Below are positions 4,262 through 41,231 of a stretch of 41,231 bases of DNA, one piece after another. A model generated the notes under the pieces. That model ran no database searches. It was not told the origin of the DNA and worked only from the letters and a program-made list of their open reading frames with translations. Position 1 is the stretch's first letter. The number at the start of each line of letters is the position of its first letter. A program made the position numbers and the translations under genes. This stretch comes from Spirochaetota bacterium (GTDB lineage Bacteria; Spirochaetota; UBA12135; COTS27; JAFLEE01), in the NCBI GenBank assembly GCA_017302015.1, contig JAFLEE010000046.1:1-41231 (forward strand). Direction: 5' to 3'.

Positions 4262-4373
4262 GGCGCCCCGGCCGACCGCCGCTCAGGATAAGCTAGGCCT
4301 CCACGGGGTCAGGAGGACTCCGCGCGGGGCGCGGCGGCGGGAGGCTGCGAGAGGTCCCCCGACAGGAGAGCCC

Positions 4374-6728
4374 ATGCCCCAGCGCCGTCCCGTTCCCGTA
4401 TCCCGCATCCACATCACGCCCAAATTCCACTACGACGTGGCGTACTTGAGGCCCTACGCCGAGTACCGCGACCTCTGCGTGGGCCACATCGCCAAGGCCC
4501 TCGATCTGCTGGAGAAGCACCCCGAGTACCGCTTCCTGGTGGAGCAGACGATCCTCCTCGAGGAGTACCTCGCCAAATACCCGAAGCACCTGGAACGTCT
4601 GCGCGCCCTCGCGAAGGCCGGACGGTTCGCCGTGGCGCCGGGGATGTACGTCATGCCCGACATGAACCTGCCCGACGGGGAATCGTTCTACCGGCAAGTC
4701 GCCGAGGGCAAGCGTTGGCTCGCCGACACCCTGGGCCTCGAGGCCAAGGTGTGCTGGATCGCCGATTGCTGGGGGCACCACGCCCAGCTCCCCCAGATGC
4801 TGGGCCAACTCGGCTACGAGTACTACGTCTTCTGGCGCTGCATGGACCGCAGGCTCCCCGTGGCCCAATTCCATTGGCGGGGGATCGACGGGAGTTCCGT
4901 GAAGACCCATTGGCTCGGCTACCGCGGCTATGGCCATATCCGTTTCCCCCACGAGGGCGAGGTGGTGAACGCGGCCGACCTCAACCTGGCGGGTTGTAGC
5001 CCCGACGCGGTGCGCGGCCTGGCCCGGGAACTCTCGACCTTCGCCACAACCGGCTCGGTCCTCCTCGTCAACGGGGGTGATTTCATGGAGCCCCAGGCCA
5101 GCGCGCCCAGCGCGCTCAAGGCCCTGGCGAAGGAAAAGGGGATGCCTCCGGTCGCCTTCGCGACCCCGGCGGAGTTCCTGGGCGGGCTCGATTGGAAGAA
5201 GGCCGGGAAGTGGGGGGGCGAGTTCAATAGCGCGCTCCAGGGAACCTTCTCCATCCACCCGAAGATCAAGCAGGATAATCGGCGCCTGGCCATGGACCTC
5301 CTCGCCCAGGAAGCCCTCGCCGCGGTGGCGGGAAGCCGCGAAGGCGCGAGCCCCCAGGCGTGGCGCCTCGTGCTCAAGCAGCAATTCCACGACATCATCT
5401 GCGGGAGCCTGGTGGATTCGGCCGTGGAGGAGAGCCACCGGGAGCACCAGAAGGCGGAGGGCCTCCTCCGCCGAGGCGCACGCGCCTCCGGCATCCCCCA
5501 GATCTTCAACCCCCTCTCGTTCCCGCGCACGGAACGCGTGGAGGCCGGGGGCGCCCGCTACCGGGTGACCCTTCCCCCGTTCGGGTTGGCGACTTTGGAA
5601 GAGAAGGACCGCCTGCCCCGGCCCGAAGCCGGCGCCGCGGGGCCCTGGACCTTCCAGGGCGACCATTTCCGCGCCGAACTCGATGCCAAGGGGTTCCTCA
5701 CCGCGCTTTCGCTCAAGGGCTCCCGCGAGAACCTGGTTCGGAGTTCGCCGACGCCCTTCGGGTCCCTCGGGCTCCAGATGGATTATGGCGATCCGTGGTG
5801 CAAATGGGAGGGGCCGGTCTCCGGGGGCAGCCGGGAGTCGGCCCTCACCCAGAACGAGAGCGATCCCTGGGACCGCAGCATCGAGGGCGAGATCGTCAAT
5901 CGGGGCACGCAGCGGGCGGCCATCACCGGGGCCCGGGCGATTTCCCAGAACCGGGAGGAACTCGTGGTGGAACAAGAGGGGCTCCTCGCGTTTTGGACGG
6001 TGCGGCTCCCCTTCAAGACGACGATCCGCCTCCACCGCGAGAGCCGCCGCATCGAGTATCGCACGGTGATGACCGGCCAAGGCAAGCATTACCGCGTGCG
6101 CGCCGCGTTCCCCACGGCGTTCCCGAAGGGGCGCGGGCGCTTCGAGATCCCCTTCGGCATCCAGGCCCGCGGCCAAGGGGAGCACGTGGCCCAGAACTGG
6201 GTCGACTGCAGCGGGGCGAAGGCCGGCGTGGCGCTCCTCAACCGGGGCCTCCCGGGGAACGCGGTGGAGGGGGGGATCCTCCTCCTCTCGCTCATGCGCA
6301 GCGTCGCCATGGAGTACAAGACGCAGAGCGCGGGGATGTTCCAGGAAGGGATCGAGCAGCGCTTCGAATACGCCATCGTGCCCCACCGAAGCGGAGAGGA
6401 TGCGCTCTTGGTGCGCGAGGGCCGCGCCTTCAACCAGCCGCCCCTGGCGTGCCGCGCGGAGCGCGCGGTGGCCGCGAGAACTTGGGAACTCTCGGGCGAG
6501 AACGTCTTCGCCTCCGCGCTGAAACCCGCGGGCGAAGGGGTCTTCCTGCGCCTCTACGAGGCGTGCGGGGAAAAAACCGCCGCGCGCCTGCGGCCCGCCT
6601 CGAACTTCGGGCAGTACGCGTTCACCGACGGCCTGGAGAATCCCAGCGCCCCCTGGCGGCCCTGTCCGCCGGTCCTCTCCCTTGCGTTCCGCCCCTTTGA
6701 AATCAAGGGGATCCTCTTCAAGCCGTGA
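4374..6728 (+). CDS. Glycoside hydrolase family 38 alpha-mannosidase
   Basis: The 784-residue protein should remove alpha-linked mannose. GH38 metal and catalytic signatures are visible: H19 and D21 in KFHYDVAY, the probable nucleophile D131 in WIADCWGHHAQLPQ, and H339-D340 in LKQQFHDIICGS. The beta-rich C-terminal half (about 400-784) is typical of the family. AGGAG five bases before ATG 4374 sets the start; the longer frame from 4230 overlaps the previous gene and lacks a site. There is no signal peptide, so it is probably cytoplasmic and acts on imported oligosaccharides, unlike its exported neighbour. It overlaps the following regulator by four bases. Confidence 0.88.
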   Translation: MPQRRPVPVSRIHITPKFHYDVAYLRPYAEYRDLCVGHIAKALDLLEKHPEYRFLVEQTILLEEYLAKYPKHLERLRALAKAGRFAVAPGMYVMPDMNLPDGESFYRQVAEGKRWLADTLGLEAKVCWIADCWGHHAQLPQMLGQLGYEYYVFWRCMDRRLPVAQFHWRGIDGSSVKTHWLGYRGYGHIRFPHEGEVVNAADLNLAGCSPDAVRGLARELSTFATTGSVLLVNGGDFMEPQASAPSALKALAKEKGMPPVAFATPAEFLGGLDWKKAGKWGGEFNSALQGTFSIHPKIKQDNRRLAMDLLAQEALAAVAGSREGASPQAWRLVLKQQFHDIICGSLVDSAVEESHREHQKAEGLLRRGARASGIPQIFNPLSFPRTERVEAGGARYRVTLPPFGLATLEEKDRLPRPEAGAAGPWTFQGDHFRAELDAKGFLTALSLKGSRENLVRSSPTPFGSLGLQMDYGDPWCKWEGPVSGGSRESALTQNESDPWDRSIEGEIVNRGTQRAAITGARAISQNREELVVEQEGLLAFWTVRLPFKTTIRLHRESRRIEYRTVMTGQGKHYRVRAAFPTAFPKGRGRFEIPFGIQARGQGEHVAQNWVDCSGAKAGVALLNRGLPGNAVEGGILLLSLMRSVAMEYKTQSAGMFQEGIEQRFEYAIVPHRSGEDALLVREGRAFNQPPLACRAERAVAARTWELSGENVFASALKPAGEGVFLRLYEACGEKTAARLRPASNFGQYAFTDGLENPSAPWRPCPPVLSLAFRPFEIKGILFKP

Positions 6729-34129: not shown

Positions 34130-35218
34130 TCACGAACGGATCCGGGCCCCGTTCCCCGTCCCGATGGGCCGTCCCAAGGATTGTATTTTTTCCCCGAAGC
34201 AGCTGCGGCAATGCCGCGGCGTTTCCTGGGCGCAAACCTTGCCCGGGTAGAGTGCATAGAGCGACCTCGCCGGGCCGGAGGTGGCGTTGGGCATCGCGAC
34301 GTTGGCCCCCCGCATGAGGGCGAGAAGGCGCCCCTGGGGGTGCAGGACTTCCATGGCCGTGGTCGCGGGGATATTGATGTCGGGGAGGAGCAGGCGCGCG
34401 AGGGCCATCATCTTCATGGAGAGGGCGAGGCTCCCGGGGGCCGCGGCCCCGAGCGGGGTCTCGGGGTTGGGGATGAACGGGCCGATGCCGACCATATCCG
34501 CATCCAGGGCCTGAAAAAAGAGGAGGTCATCGGCGAGGGAGGCGAGGGATTGCCCGGGCAGGCCGACGAGGCAGCCCGTTCCGACTTCGTAGCCGAGGCG
34601 CCGCAGATCCATGAGGCAGCGCACCCGATTCGCCCACGACATGCCGGGGCTCATGCGCTCGTAGAGGCGGGCGTCGGTGGTCTCGATGCGCAGCAAATAG
34701 CGGTCGGCCCCGGCCCGGCGGTAGGCCTCGTATTCCCGGCGGGTCTTCTCCCCCACGCTCAGCGCCACGGTGAGGCCGAGGGCCTTGAGGCCGTGGAGGA
34801 GCTCGACCATCGCCCCGGTGGGGTAGGCCGCGGACTCCCCCGATTGGAGGACCACCGTGCGGTACCCCGATTCGGCCGCCTCCCGCGCCATCTCGAGGAT
34901 CTCCCCGATGGCGAGTTGGAAACGCCGGACCCCGGGGTTGCTGCGGCGCAATCCGCAATAAAGGCAGTCTTGCCGGCAGAGATTGCTGAACTCGATGAGG
35001 CCGCGCAGGTGCACTTCCTCCCCCACCTGCTCGCGGCGGACGCGGTCGGCCGCGGCGAAGAGCGCCCCATCGGCGCCGCCTCCGGCGAGGAGGGTGACGA
35101 GTTCCCCATGGGTCAGGCGATGGCTGAGGCGGGCTTTTTCCACCAAGGACAGGAGCGCTTCGGCACTCGCCGCGGAAGGTCCGGGTGAAGTGGGCAAAGG
35201 GAACTCACAGGTAGGCAA
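34130..35218 (-). CDS. hydE: [FeFe]-hydrogenase H-cluster maturation radical SAM protein HydE
   Basis: This is a radical SAM enzyme of about 362 residues. The cluster-binding CxxxCxxC is in FSNLCRQDCLYCGLRRSN (C81, C85, C88), followed by the HydE-typical VVLQSGESAAYPTGAMVELL and YLLRIETTDARLYERMSPGM. HydE supplies part of the diiron subcluster of the hydrogenase active site. The start is uncertain: TTG 35218 has AAGGA eight bases upstream and overlaps the phosphatase gene by 14 bases, while TTG 35197 is the alternative. It is the last gene of the operon. Length is close to known HydE proteins. Confidence 0.88.
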   Translation of the reverse strand: MPTCEFPLPTSPGPSAASAEALLSLVEKARLSHRLTHGELVTLLAGGGADGALFAAADRVRREQVGEEVHLRGLIEFSNLCRQDCLYCGLRRSNPGVRRFQLAIGEILEMAREAAESGYRTVVLQSGESAAYPTGAMVELLHGLKALGLTVALSVGEKTRREYEAYRRAGADRYLLRIETTDARLYERMSPGMSWANRVRCLMDLRRLGYEVGTGCLVGLPGQSLASLADDLLFFQALDADMVGIGPFIPNPETPLGAAAPGSLALSMKMMALARLLLPDINIPATTAMEVLHPQGRLLALMRGANVAMPNATSGPARSLYALYPGKVCAQETPRHCRSCFGEKIQSLGRPIGTGNGARIRS

Positions 35219-36386
35219 TTTGGGTTTCCTTGCAATGGTCCTTCTCGAGGAGCCGGGCGATGCGCCGCACGATATTGCGCCGAAGATCCAACTCAACGGG
35301 GACGCTCGGGTCTTGGTGGGCCTCGTTCATGCGGGTGCCGACCATGAACGAAATCACGTCGGACCCCAGGAGGAGCGCCAAGAGGGCCTGGGCGGGATCG
35401 GCGGGCCGGTCCATCGGGGGCGTCCGTTCTTCCAGGAGCGAGGCGACGCGGGCGAGGGTGAGGTTGCCCTCGGTCACCAGGTCGATCCCCTCCATGCGGG
35501 CCCCGGGGGGAACCCCCGGCGCGGCGAAAGGGTCGCGGGGCTCCACTTCCCGCTTCAGGTGCGAGGCCACAATGAGGCTCGTCGTGCCCCCGCAGATGGC
35601 CTTGCGCCCCGGGAAGGCTTCGACGAGACGTGCCAATTCTCGGTCGCGGGATTTTTCGAAGGGCGGGCCGGTGACGACGAGAAGTTTTCGGGGTTCCCGG
35701 AAATAATGCACGCCGCAGGTGAGGTCATCGAGGATCCGCCCGCCGTCCTCGGCCACCGCCGCGTCCACGAGGTCCCGGGAGAGGTCCCGGGCGGAAAGCG
35801 CGGGGTCCCGCTTCAGCCACCCGCCGATGCGGGCCCGCATCCCCGCATCGCCCCAACCCGTGGGCGATTCGGGGCGGCCGGTGCCCGCCTGGGTGACGCC
35901 GTCGGAGGCGAAGACGATGCGGTCCCCCCGTCGCAATTGGAGGCGGGTGAACTGGATGAGGCGATCCTTCCAATGGGGGAGGTGGATCGTCTCCTTCTCG
36001 ACCGGTACCTCCCGGCCGCCGCTCCAGAAGGAGAAGGGCGGATTGCCGTGCTCGATGATGCGGGCCCTCCCCGAGCGGTCCATATCCACGATGGTGAAGG
36101 TCGAGTAGCTGATCCGCCGCTCGCGGCAGACCGGGAGCGTGTCCATGATGATCTCGGCGGATTTCCGGATGTCGATGGAATGGGCCGCGTACTTGAGGGC
36201 CATGGAGGCCGTCAGGGTGGCGAGGACGCTGGCCTTGATGCCGCTGCCCAGGCCGTCCGAGAGCACGGAGATCACCCGGGATTCCCCGGGGATTTTGCAC
36301 GACCGGAAGACGTCGCCGCAGACGGCCTCCCCGCCCTTGGGCGCCTGGTGGTGGTCCACCTCGATGACGCTGCCCCCGTCATCCAT
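35205..36386 (-). CDS. SpoIIE-type PP2C phosphatase associated with sensory hydrogenase
   Basis: The 393-residue protein has a PP2C/SpoIIE domain at about 1-235: metal-binding Asp residues in VCGDVF (D25) and VISVLSDGLGSGIKASVLAT (D44), then DRIVFASDGVTQ and RILDDLTCGVHYF. About 240-393 is an extra C-terminal domain I do not recognise (LLVVTGPPFEKSRDRELARL, then AICGGTTSLIVASHL). Such phosphatases are known neighbours of group C sensory-type [FeFe]-hydrogenases, so it probably turns the hydrogenase signal into Ser/Thr dephosphorylation. GGAGG lies five bases before the ATG, and the gene overlaps the hydrogenase gene by eight bases. Confidence 0.85.
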   Translation of the reverse strand: MDDGGSVIEVDHHQAPKGGEAVCGDVFRSCKIPGESRVISVLSDGLGSGIKASVLATLTASMALKYAAHSIDIRKSAEIIMDTLPVCRERRISYSTFTIVDMDRSGRARIIEHGNPPFSFWSGGREVPVEKETIHLPHWKDRLIQFTRLQLRRGDRIVFASDGVTQAGTGRPESPTGWGDAGMRARIGGWLKRDPALSARDLSRDLVDAAVAEDGGRILDDLTCGVHYFREPRKLLVVTGPPFEKSRDRELARLVEAFPGRKAICGGTTSLIVASHLKREVEPRDPFAAPGVPPGARMEGIDLVTEGNLTLARVASLLEERTPPMDRPADPAQALLALLLGSDVISFMVGTRMNEAHQDPSVPVELDLRRNIVRRIARLLEKDHCKETQIAYL

Positions 36387-38130
36387 GGTCGCCTCCCGCG
36401 CGTTCCCCGTCCTGGAACGAGTCGACGATGGAACTGAGGATGATCTCCGAATCGGCGGCGTTTTCGCCGATGAGCGAGGCGATCTCCTGGACCGTCTTCA
36501 GGTTCTGCTGGATGACCTGGCGCGAGCGGCGGATGATCTGCTCCCGCTGGGTAGCCGGCCGGGTGATGTCCTCGAAAAGGGCGCCGAAGAGGTCGTGCTT
36601 CTCGATCTGGAAGAGGAGGGTATGGAGGATGCGCCCCTGGAAGCGCAGGTCCTTCTCCAGCGTCTCCTCGCCGCTGCGCAGGAAATTCTCGAAGAGTTCG
36701 GTGAACGGCGTGAGGTCGCCCAAGTTCCGTCCCTCGAGGTTCGCCCCGTCCGCCTCCTTCGGGCCCGCGAATAATTGGTTGAAGTGCGGGTTGCATTCCA
36801 CCACCCGGAGGTCCCGGTCGAGGAGGGCCAGGGCGGAGGGGAGTTTGCGCAGGAGGACGTCGGCCTTCTTCTGGGCCAGGGCCCGCAGGTGGGCGACGCA
36901 CATGGTCCGCTCGGCCTTGCCGTCGAGGTAGGCCAGGGCGAAATCCCGGCACGATTCGTAGCCGCAGCCGCCGCAATTGAGTTCGTCCTCCGGCCCCTCC
37001 TTCCCCACGAGGCGCAGGACCTCGCGCAGTTTCTCCTCCGTCACCAGGCGGCGCGAGAGCGCGCTGGGCGAGTAGGTCTCCTCGATCGGGGCGCGCTCCG
37101 TCACGGGGAGGGCCGCGCGGGCGTAGCGGGCGAGGGCGAGGTGCTTGCAGACCGTCGAGACCCGGGCGTGGCTCTTGGGCCCGTTGACGCAGCCCCCGGG
37201 GCAGGCGAGGAGTTCGAGGAAGAGCCTGCCCTCGGTCGTGGCGTCGAGCCCGGCGAGGGCCTCGGCGAAGCGGGCGATGCCCGAGACCGAGAGGAACTGG
37301 GCCTCGAGGCCCGCGCGCTGCCCCTGGATGCTGCGGATCATGCCGCCCTCCACGGGGTAGAGGGCGCCGTCCCGGGACCGCCTCGGGGAGAAGGCGTCGT
37401 CGGGGCCCTCCTCCAGGGAGGCGGGGCGGATGCCGCGGTGCGCGAGCCAGCGGTGCAGGTCTTCGAAGGTGAGGGCCACGTCCACGAGTTCGGGGTGCTG
37501 GTCGGCCTCGATCTTCTTCGCGATGCAGGGCCCGATGAATACCAGCGCGATGGGGCCGGTGGCGTTCTGGCGGAGCAATCGCGCATGGGCGAGTAGTGGC
37601 GAGAGGAGCTCGGTGAGGAAGACCGCGTGGGGAGCCGCGTACTTGCGCAGGTATTCCACCGCCGTGGGGCACGCCGACGAGATGAGGAGGGCGTCGCCCC
37701 CGCGGGCGAGGCGTTCGGCCACGTGGTGGCTGACCAGTTCGGCCCCGATGGCAGTCTCCGAGACCCGGGCGAAGCCGAGGAGGCGCAGCGCCGCGATGAG
37801 TTGCCCCGGGCGCACCCCGGGGAACTCGGTGAGGAACGAGGGCGCCAGCGAGACCCACGTCTCATGGGGCCCCTGGAGGAGGGCCGCCGCCCGCGGGATA
37901 TCGTCGCGCACCTGTTTGGCCCCCCGGGGGCAGGCGTCCACGCAATGGCCGCAGAGGATGCAGAGCTCCGGTAGGATGGAAGCATCCCCTTCCTTCACCT
38001 GGATCGCCTTCACCGGGCATTCGCGGATGCACTTATAGCAGTCCTGGCACTCGGTCTTCTGGGTGAAGATGGGCGGGGCCCGTTTCGCGGTTCCTTCTAT
38101 AGAAATAAGAGTGTTTAGCGGGTCATCCAT
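36379..38130 (-). CDS. hydS: Group C (putative sensory) [FeFe]-hydrogenase with PAS domain
   Basis: The 583-residue protein has, in order: two [4Fe-4S] ferredoxin motifs (C28-C38 and C57-C67); the H-domain with ISSACPTAVEYL (C154), FIGPCIAKKIEAD (C202) and LACPGGCVNGP (C310, C314); an extra Fe-S motif NCGGCGYESC ending at C411; and a PAS domain at about 425-535. All four H-cluster cysteines are present. The proton-transfer cysteine before C154 is replaced by Ala153, and the Met of the second motif by Gly, as described for slow sensory hydrogenases. ATG 38130 overlaps hydF by eight bases; an in-frame start 16 codons upstream is less likely. The name follows the group C usage and the role is inferred. 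Confidence 0.87.
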   Translation of the reverse strand: MDDPLNTLISIEGTAKRAPPIFTQKTECQDCYKCIRECPVKAIQVKEGDASILPELCILCGHCVDACPRGAKQVRDDIPRAAALLQGPHETWVSLAPSFLTEFPGVRPGQLIAALRLLGFARVSETAIGAELVSHHVAERLARGGDALLISSACPTAVEYLRKYAAPHAVFLTELLSPLLAHARLLRQNATGPIALVFIGPCIAKKIEADQHPELVDVALTFEDLHRWLAHRGIRPASLEEGPDDAFSPRRSRDGALYPVEGGMIRSIQGQRAGLEAQFLSVSGIARFAEALAGLDATTEGRLFLELLACPGGCVNGPKSHARVSTVCKHLALARYARAALPVTERAPIEETYSPSALSRRLVTEEKLREVLRLVGKEGPEDELNCGGCGYESCRDFALAYLDGKAERTMCVAHLRALAQKKADVLLRKLPSALALLDRDLRVVECNPHFNQLFAGPKEADGANLEGRNLGDLTPFTELFENFLRSGEETLEKDLRFQGRILHTLLFQIEKHDLFGALFEDITRPATQREQIIRRSRQVIQQNLKTVQEIASLIGENAADSEIILSSIVDSFQDGERAGGDHG

Positions 38131-39406
38131 GGGCGATTTCCAAGGCAGGGGTCGGGGGTTGGAATTGGGGTTTTCCAAGATTTCGCCGGGCCTCTACCGC
38201 GTTTCGATAGCGTTCCAAAGCGGCGGGGAAGGGTCCCAGGGCCCGTTCGAAGATCCCCAGGCTATAGGCGATCACCAGGCCGTAATTGGTGATGGGCACG
38301 CCCATGGCGGCGCAACGCTCGATCCGTCCCCCCAATTCTTTGGCCCCCATGGTGCAGGCCCCGCAATGGATGACGAGGCGATAGGGCGAAAGATCTTCGG
38401 GGAAATCGTGGCCCTGCACGTGGTCGATTCGGAGGGCCCCGCCGACGTACTGGGTGAGCCATCGGGGGATCTTCACCCGGCCGATATCCTCGCCCACGGG
38501 ATGGTGGGCGCAGGCCTCGGCGATGAGGATGCGGTCGCCCGCGCGAAGTCCGTCCACCGCGAGCGCTCCCTCCACCTGCCGCAGCAGATCGCCCTTGAAG
38601 CGGGAGAAGAGGATCGAGAAGGAGGTGAGGGGGATCTCCTCGGGCACGTCGGCGGCCACCTTGAGGAAGGCTTGGGAATCGGTGATGACGAGGCGGGGGG
38701 GGCGCGCGAGGGCGGCGAGGGCCCCCCGGAGTTCGCGTTCCTTCACCACGAGCGTCATGGCATCGCTGTCGAGCAGATCCCGCAGCGTTTGCGCTTGGGG
38801 CAGGATGAGCCGGCCCGCGGGCGCTTCCTGGTCGATGGGGATCACCATCACGGCCAATTCCCCGGGTCCCACCAGGTCTCCGGCGAGGGGGGCCGCGGCG
38901 ATTCCCCGCCTGGCCTTCACGGAATGCATCGCTTCTCGAAGGGCATCGAGGCCCGCCCCGGTCTTCGCCGAGGCCCATACGGTGGTGGCATCGGGCATGC
39001 CATTCGGTTTGCCGGCCGCCGGGAGGTCGACCTTATTGTGGACGATGACGAGGGGCGTGCCCCGGGCGTGGAGGGTCTTGTAGAGTTCCGCCTCGTGCGG
39101 GCCCCAGGCGCCCCCGTCGGTGATGAGGAGCGCCAGGTCGGTGCGGTCCAGGGTCGCCCGGGTTTTCGCCACGCGCCGCTCCCCGAGTTCTCCCTCGTCA
39201 TCGATCCCCGCCGTGTCGATGAAGAGCACGGGCCCGATGGGCTTCAGTTCCATGGGCTTCTCCACGGGGTCGGTCGTGGTGCCCGGCTCGTTCGAGACGA
39301 TGGAGACCTCCTGGTGGACCAGGGCGTTGAGCAGGCTCGATTTGCCCACATTGCGCCGGCCGAAGAGGCCGATATGGGTGCGGAGTCCGGTAGGGGTTTG
39401 TCTCAT
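38123..39406 (-). CDS. hydF: [FeFe]-hydrogenase maturation GTPase HydF
   Basis: HydF is the scaffold that carries the diiron precursor to the hydrogenase. The 427-residue protein shows the GTPase motifs GRRNVGKSS (from residue 16), the switch region around PGTTTDP, DTAG and NKVD. The C-terminal Fe-S domain has the typical C-x-H (EACAHH) and HCGACTM elements. AGGAG six bases before the ATG is the ribosome site. Its start overlaps the aspA stop in an ATGA, and its end overlaps the hydrogenase gene by eight bases, so the chain is probably translated in a coupled way. Confidence 0.93.
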   Translation of the reverse strand: MRQTPTGLRTHIGLFGRRNVGKSSLLNALVHQEVSIVSNEPGTTTDPVEKPMELKPIGPVLFIDTAGIDDEGELGERRVAKTRATLDRTDLALLITDGGAWGPHEAELYKTLHARGTPLVIVHNKVDLPAAGKPNGMPDATTVWASAKTGAGLDALREAMHSVKARRGIAAAPLAGDLVGPGELAVMVIPIDQEAPAGRLILPQAQTLRDLLDSDAMTLVVKERELRGALAALARPPRLVITDSQAFLKVAADVPEEIPLTSFSILFSRFKGDLLRQVEGALAVDGLRAGDRILIAEACAHHPVGEDIGRVKIPRWLTQYVGGALRIDHVQGHDFPEDLSPYRLVIHCGACTMGAKELGGRIERCAAMGVPITNYGLVIAYSLGIFERALGPFPAALERYRNAVEARRNLGKPQFQPPTPALEIAHG

Positions 39407-40893
39407 GGGGTGCTCCTGATGGGTGCGCTATTTCGTTCCGCCGTCCCGGCGTTTGGCTTCGGTCCTTCCGACCTCAGCGGGCCGCCTACCGCGGATTCCA
39501 GGGAATGTCCCAGGCGGCAGACTGCTTCGGCGGAGATGGCCGCGTCGTATTCTTCGGGGCGAAGCAAATGCCGCTCGAGCACGAGGGTCCGAATATCGGT
39601 GGAGTTGGCCCCGCGCAGGAGTTCCGTGACCTGTTCATGGCCGAGGAGGGGTACGAGCGCGGTGGCCGCGGCGGTGGCCCCCGCGATTTGGCGGGCGCAG
39701 CGGGCCTCGTCGGCCTCCATGCCGTCGACGCAATGGAGGCGCAGGACCCGGCAGGCATTGCGCAGGAGTTCCACGCTTTCTAGGAGGCAGGCGGCCACGA
39801 GGGGAAGGAACGGGTTGAGTTCGAGGCTCCCCTGGGCGCAGGCCATGGAAAGGCTCGCCTCGTTGCCGTAAACCCGCATGGCCGCCTGGGCCACCGCCTC
39901 GGGGATCACCGGGTTCACCTTGCCGGGCATGAGCGAGGAACCCGCCTGGCGCGGGGGAAGGATGAGTTCCCCGAGGCCGGCCTCCGGCCCCGAGGCGAGG
40001 AGCCGCAGATCGCCGCTGACTTTCCACAGCGTACAGGCGAGCGCCTTCACCAGGCCCATGACCTCCACGAAGACATCCGCATTCTGGGTCGCTTCCACCA
40101 GATTCTCCGCCCGGGCGAACCCGATGCCGGTTTGGCGGCGCAATTCATCGACGACGCGGAAGATGTATTCCCGCGGCGCGCCGAGGCCGGTGCCGATGGC
40201 GGTGCCGCCCAGGTTCACGACGCGCAGGCGTTCCTCGCACTTCGACAGGCGCCAGCGGTCGCGGCCGAAGGCTTCCCCCCAGGCGCCGGCCTCCCGGCCC
40301 AGGGTGATGAGCACGGCGTCCTGGAGTTGGGTGCGCCCGACCTTCACCACGCCCGCCATGCGCTTCTCCGCGGCCTGGAACGATTCCTGGAGCCGCGTCA
40401 CCTCGGTCTCCAAGGAGCGGATCTCCAGGATGGCCGCGAGGCGAAGGGCCGTGGGGAAGGTGTCGTTGGTCGACTGGTGCCGGTTCACGTCGCCCAGGGG
40501 CGAAACACCGCGCCCGTCGCCCGGTTCTCGGCCGAGGAGTTCATTGGCGCGGGCGGCGAGTACCTCGTTGATGTTCATGTTCGTGCTCGTGCCGGCCCCG
40601 CCCTGGAGCCCATCCACGAGGATATGCCGGGTGAGCCGGCCCTCGGACATTTCCGCGCACGCTTCCTGCATCGCCCCGATCTTCTCGGGTTCCCCGCTCC
40701 AGGCGCCCAGGGCCGCGTTCGTTCGGACCGCCGCCCCCTTCACGAAACCGAAGGCCCGCACTAGGGTGGGATGGACCGTCCGTCCGGTGAGCGGGAAATT
40801 TTCCAGGGCCCGGAGGGTGTGGATGCCATAGAGGGCCCCCGCCGGGATTTCCCGTTCGCCTAGGAGATCCTTCTCGATGCGCGTGGGTTTCAT
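39403..40893 (-). CDS. aspA: Aspartate ammonia-lyase (aspartase), first gene of the hydrogenase operon
   Basis: The 496-residue protein belongs to the fumarase/aspartase superfamily and should convert aspartate to fumarate and ammonia. Signatures: GLQGGAGTSTNMNINEVLA, VNRHQSTNDTFPTALRLA, KVGRTQLQDAVLITLG, and the superfamily signature GSSLMPGKVNPVIPE. The tail after about 465 is Pro/Ser-rich and longer than usual. GGAG seven bases upstream sets the start. It overlaps hydF by four bases. aspA-like genes recur beside [FeFe]-hydrogenase maturation genes in other anaerobes, where a role in supplying ammonium for the bridging ligand has been proposed. A fumarase cannot be fully excluded. Confidence 0.88.
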   Translation of the reverse strand: MKPTRIEKDLLGEREIPAGALYGIHTLRALENFPLTGRTVHPTLVRAFGFVKGAAVRTNAALGAWSGEPEKIGAMQEACAEMSEGRLTRHILVDGLQGGAGTSTNMNINEVLAARANELLGREPGDGRGVSPLGDVNRHQSTNDTFPTALRLAAILEIRSLETEVTRLQESFQAAEKRMAGVVKVGRTQLQDAVLITLGREAGAWGEAFGRDRWRLSKCEERLRVVNLGGTAIGTGLGAPREYIFRVVDELRRQTGIGFARAENLVEATQNADVFVEVMGLVKALACTLWKVSGDLRLLASGPEAGLGELILPPRQAGSSLMPGKVNPVIPEAVAQAAMRVYGNEASLSMACAQGSLELNPFLPLVAACLLESVELLRNACRVLRLHCVDGMEADEARCARQIAGATAAATALVPLLGHEQVTELLRGANSTDIRTLVLERHLLRPEEYDAAISAEAVCRLGHSLESAVGGPLRSEGPKPNAGTAERNSAPIRSTP

Positions 40894-40911
40894 CGCATTT
40901 CTCCAATCTTC

Positions 40912-41231
40912 TCGGTCGCGAGATTGCGCCTTCGTGGCGCGGCGACCGATTGATGACTTCCTGTCATCCCGTCGGTCGCCGGATTGCGCCCTCGTGGCGC
41001 GGCGACCGATTGATGACTTCCTGTCATCCCGTCGGTCGCCGGATTGCGCCCTCGTGGCGCGGCGACCGATTGATGACTTCCTGTCATCCCGTCGGTCGCC
41101 GGAATGCGCCCTCGTGGCGCGGCGACCGATTGATGACTTCCTGTCATCCCGTCGGTCGCCGGAATGCGCCCTCGTGGCGCGGCGACCGATTGATGACTTC
41201 CTGTCATCCCGTCGGTCGCCGGAATGCGCCC
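40912..41231. repeat. 60-bp tandem repeat array, five full units plus a partial, continuing beyond the window
   Basis: The sequence repeats with an exact 60-base period up to the window end. Each unit has hairpin A of 34 bases (GGTCGCC, a 5-base bulge, GCGCC, loop CTCGT, GGCGC, GGCGACC; for example 40974-41007), GATT, hairpin B of 17 bases (GATGAC-TTCCT-GTCATC; for example 41012-41028), and CCGTC. The bulge reads AGATT in the first unit, GGATT in the next two and GGAAT in the last three; the first unit also has loop TTCGT and a changed arm base. Because 60 is a multiple of three, an open frame of 20-residue repeats runs through the minus strand (40890-41207). Confidence 0.95.
40952..41208 (-). 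ncRNA. Possible repeat RNA or 5' leader with CsrA-site-like hairpins
   Basis: Read on the minus strand, the five B hairpins become GATGAC-AGGAA-GTCATC. Each shows CAGGAAG with GGA in a pentaloop, at 60-base spacing. Repeated CAGGA(A/T/C)G loops are the hallmark of CsrB-type RNAs that sequester CsrA. The array lies directly upstream of aspA, in its transcription direction, so it could be the mRNA leader of the hydrogenase operon or a separate RNA. Neither transcription nor a csrA gene is shown here. Confidence 0.3.

Follow-up and report, generated by a model that had tools for sequence, protein, structure and literature searches.

Short palindromic repeats of the REP and RPE type occur singly or in clusters, lie mostly in intergenic regions near the 3′ ends of genes and are sometimes translated within genes (PMC3733652). 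In the Csr system, CsrB carries CAGGA(U/A/C)G elements, the SELEX consensus for CsrA reads RUACARGGAUGU, and fliW is anti-correlated with BarA-UvrY, the driver of CsrB/C (PMC7652899). Leaders can titrate CsrA as well: the flaA leader of C. jejuni, with two GGA hairpins at the Shine-Dalgarno sequence (SD), does so beside FliW, and the leader of Salmonella fimAICDHF does so alongside CsrB/C (PMC4894983). TwoAYGGAY (RF01731) and the reverse complement of Bacillaceae-1 are predicted CsrA-binding RNAs with two GGA-loop hairpins (PMC4333381).

The window analysed here, a stretch of 41,231 nt, is contig C107 of a 5.43-Mb Spirochaetota genome in 165 contigs, and its sequence stops inside a tandem array of hairpin units. 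The repeat resembles REP/BIME and RPE elements in its dispersal, its clustering, its location at gene 3′ ends and its translated in-gene copies, but it is a 60-bp unit of two hairpins with GGA pentaloops, no GTAG tag and no RAYT were found with it, and units in single copy are also used as leaders close to an SD. With CsrB and RsmZ, the CsrA-sequestering sRNAs, it shares repeated CAGGA(A/U)G loops and, judged by sequence, many GGA hairpins in one RNA; it differs in being dispersed, in lying in an operon and in genes of a genome with fliW, and in that half of the hairpins of the window array lack GGA. The leader units have the layout of the flaA leader, a pair of neighbouring GGA-loop hairpins at the SD, whereas the flaA loops are hexaloops spaced 21 nt apart and those here are pentaloops spaced 28 nt apart. 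The fimAICDHF leader offers a parallel for CsrA titration by an operon 5′ UTR, for which the present array is a candidate only; unlike the flaA and fim leaders, the leader units here precede diverse non-flagellar genes. TwoAYGGAY and Bacillaceae-1 share the two GGA-loop hairpins and, like the repeat, are linked to CsrA by motif only; the covariance model of TwoAYGGAY gave no match here even at E up to 5, and that of Bacillaceae-1 gave none.

We regard it as probable that the window array represents a dispersed, REP/RPE-like two-hairpin repeat in tandem copies, with an intercistronic role and, more weakly, a role as a CsrA sink.

A tandem array of 60-bp two-hairpin units

The array (Table 1) comprises 5.3 units of exactly 60 bp each, with 98% matches and no indels. 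A sequence-only reading had described at least five hairpins presenting CAGGAAG, with an AGGAA loop, in register on the minus strand, and this was confirmed: the B hairpins are five perfect copies of GATGAC-AGGAA-GTCATC, 60 bp apart. Its comparison with CsrB-type elements held in part. Among the CAGGA(U/A/C)G elements of CsrB is the sequence of the B loop, CAGGAAG, and GGA is kept across the repeat family; every unit, however, has a second hairpin, A, reading CGGTCGCC-GCGCC-ACGAG-GGCGC-AATCC-GGCGACCG on the minus strand, and all A loops of the array, ACGAG or ACGAA, are without GGA. With up to two mismatches, the B 17-mer was found at 17 sites in the genome and the reversed pattern at none. 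The minus strand of the array folds strongly (-193.5 kcal/mol, z = -12.6 versus shuffled sequence) and the plus strand equally so (-201, z = -14), because the units are palindromes. An Rfam search of the array and seven further loci returned nothing near the gathering score, and the array matched no CsrB/RsmZ family. A minus-strand reading frame extends without a stop through the array into aspA, yet we rejected a coding explanation since matches to the aspA family begin at the annotated ATG, an SD precedes this ATG, and stop codons tend to be missing from all frames of these GC-rich repeats.

Contig C4 terminates in the same array (95% identical), two bases past the stop codon of hydG, and adds three B hairpins to the five GGA loops of the window. 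Joined on array identity and synteny rather than on reads, the two contigs most probably have the array in the hyd maturation operon, with hydG on one side and aspA on the other. The genes are likely to follow the order hydG, the array with at least eight B hairpins, aspA, hydF, the hydrogenase-like gene, the SpoIIE-like gene and hydE, since in most of 80 named aspA loci of other bacteria hydG lies before aspA and hydF after it, on one strand. The GGA strand of the array is the sense strand of the operon, and 16 nt separate the last unit from aspA. The array had been placed upstream of the hydrogenase operon; with C4 ending in it after hydG, it instead most probably falls within the operon.

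In the operon mRNA, the array would form a row of stable hairpins between hydG and aspA, which would separate the translation of the two genes and slow 3′-5′ decay of the hydG segment lying upstream, in the manner of intercistronic REP arrays. Its GGA pentaloops, at least eight in number, may in addition bind CsrA and make the array a secondary CsrA sink, and CsrA may act on aspA through it; we propose these weaker roles because single units of the same architecture are kept elsewhere as 5′ leaders. Thus the array probably acts like a REP-type intercistronic array and might also serve as a CsrA-binding leader or sink. The nature of the C4-C107 join weighs against this reading, as does the origin of the gene calls, a home-made codon model for which long ORFs totalling 593 kb were the training set.

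Table 1 Positions of the array, its hairpins, neighbouring genes and related elements
Feature	Position	Strand	Remarks
Tandem array of 60-bp two-hairpin units	40912..41231	-	Cut by contig end; probable continuation C4:16723-16867
B hairpin 1, closest to aspA	40952..40968	-	GATGAC-AGGAA-GTCATC, GGA in pentaloop
B hairpin 2	41012..41028	-	Identical to B hairpin 1
B hairpin 3	41072..41088	-	Identical to B hairpin 1
B hairpin 4	41132..41148	-	Identical to B hairpin 1
B hairpin 5	41192..41208	-	Identical to B hairpin 1
A hairpin 1	40913..40948	-	Outer stem, 5-bp inner stem, loop ACGAA (without GGA), 3′ bulge
A hairpin 2	40973..41008	-	Loop ACGAG (without GGA), 3′ bulge AATCC
Other A hairpins of the window array	41033-41068, 41093-41128, 41153-41188	-	
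Last repeat unit and SD region before aspA	40896..40969	-	Match to leader model R2, E 3.4e-4; loops at -69 and -42 from ATG
aspA/fumC-type lyase (aspartate ammonia-lyase), first gene past array	39403..40893	-	NF008909, above cut-off
hydF, [FeFe]-hydrogenase maturation GTPase	38123..39406	-	
[FeFe]-hydrogenase-like protein with ferredoxin domain	36379..38178	-	Probably sensory type; TIGR04105 below its cut-off
SpoIIE-like phosphatase	35205..36386	-	TIGR02865 E 2.7e-11, below its cut-off
hydE, radical SAM maturase	34130..35296	-	
Single-copy leader-type relative	4304..4376	+	Loops AGGAG at -63 and GGGAG at -35, SD AGGAG, then ATG
Mannosylglycerate-hydrolase-like gene after window leader unit	4374-6728	+	
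In-gene copies, read as extra peptide	L014 1501-1620, L175 1403-1562, L180 1471-1532		GATase_4, CusB/HlyD-like, radical SAM/SPASM
Dispersed hairpins of genome G011	L161, L165, L166, L322-L341, L354-L373		Variable stems, loops AGGAT/A(A,T,C)GGAT

A dispersed repeat family with a constant loop core

A blastn search of the genome gave 39 matches to the repeat on more than 20 contigs, and a covariance model built from 41 units (R1) gave at least 92 among 150 scored candidates, about 73 of them at E<1e-4, in some 35 places. Many of the arrays have wholly different stems and a common plan, in which a B hairpin is followed by an AAT-like linker and then by an A hairpin, which has an outer and a 5-bp inner stem, a pentaloop and a bulge on the 3′ side. 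Both hairpins are maintained by covarying stems: across 75 units, 131 cells were changed on both sides of a pair as against 36 in shuffled alignments, and the covariation score was 0.332 versus 0.120, in an alignment fitted to the structure, which favours this score; sliding the partner abolishes it. The repeat is both scattered and clustered, and its loops keep the GGA core, which is present in 62 of 73 B loops (85%) and 51 of 74 A loops (69%). The chief exception is CGA (ACGAG, ACGAA), and the wider pattern NNGAN covers 67/73 B and 71/74 A loops. Stems and linkers differ and the bases at either end of the loop vary freely, while the core mostly stays the same; from this we infer that the core is read by something, either as RNA or as single-stranded DNA.

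Arrays occur in gaps between tandem, between convergent and between divergent genes. For arrays flanked by two genes of one strand, the GGA strand is sense in nine cases and antisense in three (p 0.07, the C4/C107 pair being entered once, as sense). About 10 of the 16 arrays with a same-strand upstream gene begin at most about 20 nt from the point where that gene stops, and some supply its stop codon themselves. Three arrays lie inside coding genes and are translated. The family thus consists of short palindromes in many copies, single and clustered, mostly intergenic near gene 3′ ends and occasionally in genes, as described for REP and RPE elements. In two related arrays, on contigs C24 (L186 1408-1535) and C35 (L169 1402-1817), the hairpins are mostly of the A type, with loops AGGAG and partly ACGAG. 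On contig C100, TGTCATCCCGGCTTGTCCGGGATCC adjoins the array (L019 about 1255-1285), which we take to resemble the CGTC-tagged REP type.

This distribution bears on the proposal that the locus holds a dedicated small RNA gene of the CsrB/RsmZ type, or at least a feature specific to the operon. At least five CAGGAAG loops in register would suit such a gene, but the unit recurs in about 35 places or more, in both orientations and within three coding sequences, and the array lies between two operon genes, with a terminator or promoter of its own not established. The missing match to CsrB/RsmZ families in Rfam and the presence of fliW, anti-correlated as it is with BarA-UvrY, point the same way, so that this explanation is highly improbable. 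The array is not a dedicated sRNA gene, a defining feature of the CsrB family.

A palindromic repeat might also be purely selfish and functionless at this locus, its GGA loop serving only the enzyme that spreads it, by recognition of single-stranded DNA hairpins. The weak strand preference, the preference for gene 3′ ends and the insertions in genes favour this view, which we nevertheless consider rather unlikely. Against it stand the precise placement and covariation of the leader class before SD and ATG and the search for a REP-type transposase: RAYT (Y1_Tnp, PF01797) had no match in the 93% complete assembly, with positive controls. The lack of a transposase partner also speaks against the REP-like reading that we prefer, and the conservation of the GGA core and the use as leader exceed what plain REP elements do. 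Inspection of the aligned arrays showed no GTAG tag at the repeat ends, which read AGGATG/ACAGGATG.

Single units in mRNA leaders

Although built without an SD, model R1 also found single units that end just before SD and ATG, all eight in sense orientation. Their loops lie at about -64 and -36 from the ATG, and this 28-nt spacing is the B-to-A spacing of the arrays. Control models with scrambled loop cores gave 0-7 leader matches against 15, a number that counts three loci more than once and includes the window array and two likely chance matches. A second leader model, R2, which contains SD and ATG and hence matches in sense by construction, found about 30 leader units in the genome, single copies and weaker relatives of the array unit; taken one by one, matches with E above about 1e-5 are weak. 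Covariation in these units was 0.367 versus 0.142 for shuffled alignments, and about 30% of their loops lack GGA. Two GGA-loop hairpins and an SD just before the start codon, as in leaders of the flaA type, were thus found in about 30 units, the last array unit before aspA being a weaker match.

One leader unit lies in the window (Table 1). Others precede genes for an acetyl xylan esterase, redoxins, a thioredoxin, a transhydrogenase subunit and a glucuronyl esterase, as well as pdxJ and acsA, identified by reading of the sequence. The -10-like boxes upstream of several units are only suggestive of an mRNA start near hairpin 1. We rejected the explanation that such hairpins belong to leaders generally, as pentaloop hairpins were no general trait of upstream regions (830 kb), and two-hairpin leaders make up a small minority of these regions. 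The leader unit had no Rfam match among the elements tested, and R2 found nothing in 40 relatives except one repeat in genome G011.

CsrA as a possible reader of the loops

A csrA gene, on which any CsrA sink depends, is present in one copy, with Leu4 and the arginine of the VHR motif. It adjoins fliW: contigs C29 and C34 share CCCCGAAAGGGCC at their ends, and this overlap puts csrA after fliW. A terminator-like hairpin lies between the two genes (L185 end / L001 start).

A CsrA role for the repeat is plausible. Since the flaA and fimAICDHF leaders titrate CsrA (PMC4894983), the leader class resembles a leader bound by CsrA, and the arrays are candidate sinks; these two leaders also call for a correction of the earlier statement that no such arrangement is known. 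What stands of the suggestion of a CsrA sink or leader in the hydrogenase operon is that csrA exists, that the GGA strand is sense and that the last unit takes a leader position before aspA. Extended to the whole genome, this would mean that the leader units are CsrA targets and that transcribed tandem arrays, including that of the window, are titrating decoys. In its favour, the GGA core is kept in C-G-closed loops while the stems are replaced, two GGA hairpins 28 nt apart precede SD and ATG much as in C. jejuni flaA, the leader units found with the SD-free R1 are all sense, and the hairpins of G011 described below have loops of the SELEX type. The strand preference of the arrays, however, is not significant, and the hairpins of G011 show none; the A loops of the window array and about 30% of the leader loops are without GGA, and the stems exceed the length preferred by SELEX ligands. 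Flagellin leaders, the classical FliW-CsrA target and our intended positive control, lack the element; FlaB-like flagellins, with 6pwb FlaB1 among the top matches, point to Spirochaetota as the phylum. Co-occurrence with csrA was rejected as a test, being uninformative for a gene that is nearly universal in the phylum (39 of the 41 genomes of our set). On balance, control by CsrA throughout the family is a tentative reading and doubtful in this breadth, while the REP-like reading of the window array allows for CsrA binding as a secondary property.

Should the loops bind CsrA, post-transcriptional regulatory sites would arise directly from a selfish repeat, and the sinks, instead of being concentrated in one sRNA, would be distributed among many mRNAs of a genome that has FliW and in which no CsrB gene is recognised. 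Otherwise, the family is a warning that CsrB-like loops can belong to REP-like repeats. In either case the two-hairpin leader qualifies as a candidate RNA motif, unmatched in Rfam where tested.

Related hairpins in other genomes

In G011, another genome of the phylum, the pattern GACAGGAWGTC was found 63 times and its reversed form 0 times; counts in most other relatives were close to the control, and G022 had 24 versus 3. In 400 kb of G011, drawn from hit-bearing contigs so that hairpin density is not representative, hairpins with a stem of at least 6 and a GGA loop have mostly the loops AGGAT, ATGGAT and AAGGAT, 28 of 46 are closed by AC..GT, and 31 different stem ends occur. By their sequence, these loops match the SELEX motif of CsrA. 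In tandem gene contexts, five of the hairpins are sense and five antisense, and they prefer convergent gaps (15/32 versus 29/173, p 7e-5), an enrichment that favours the selfish-repeat explanation.

The two genomes together allow a more speculative scenario, which we think improbable but worth stating: a mobile palindromic repeat with CsrA-binding loops may, by spreading through the genome, have created a CsrA regulon there, with single units turned into CsrA-responsive leaders and operon arrays into sinks, while G011 independently accumulated hairpins with SELEX-type loops.

The match in G018 was at chance level, and that in G022 proved to be an unrelated repeat. On contig C42 of G022 (L160), an unrelated long repeat with GC-rich hairpins is present in at least two copies within 1 kb.
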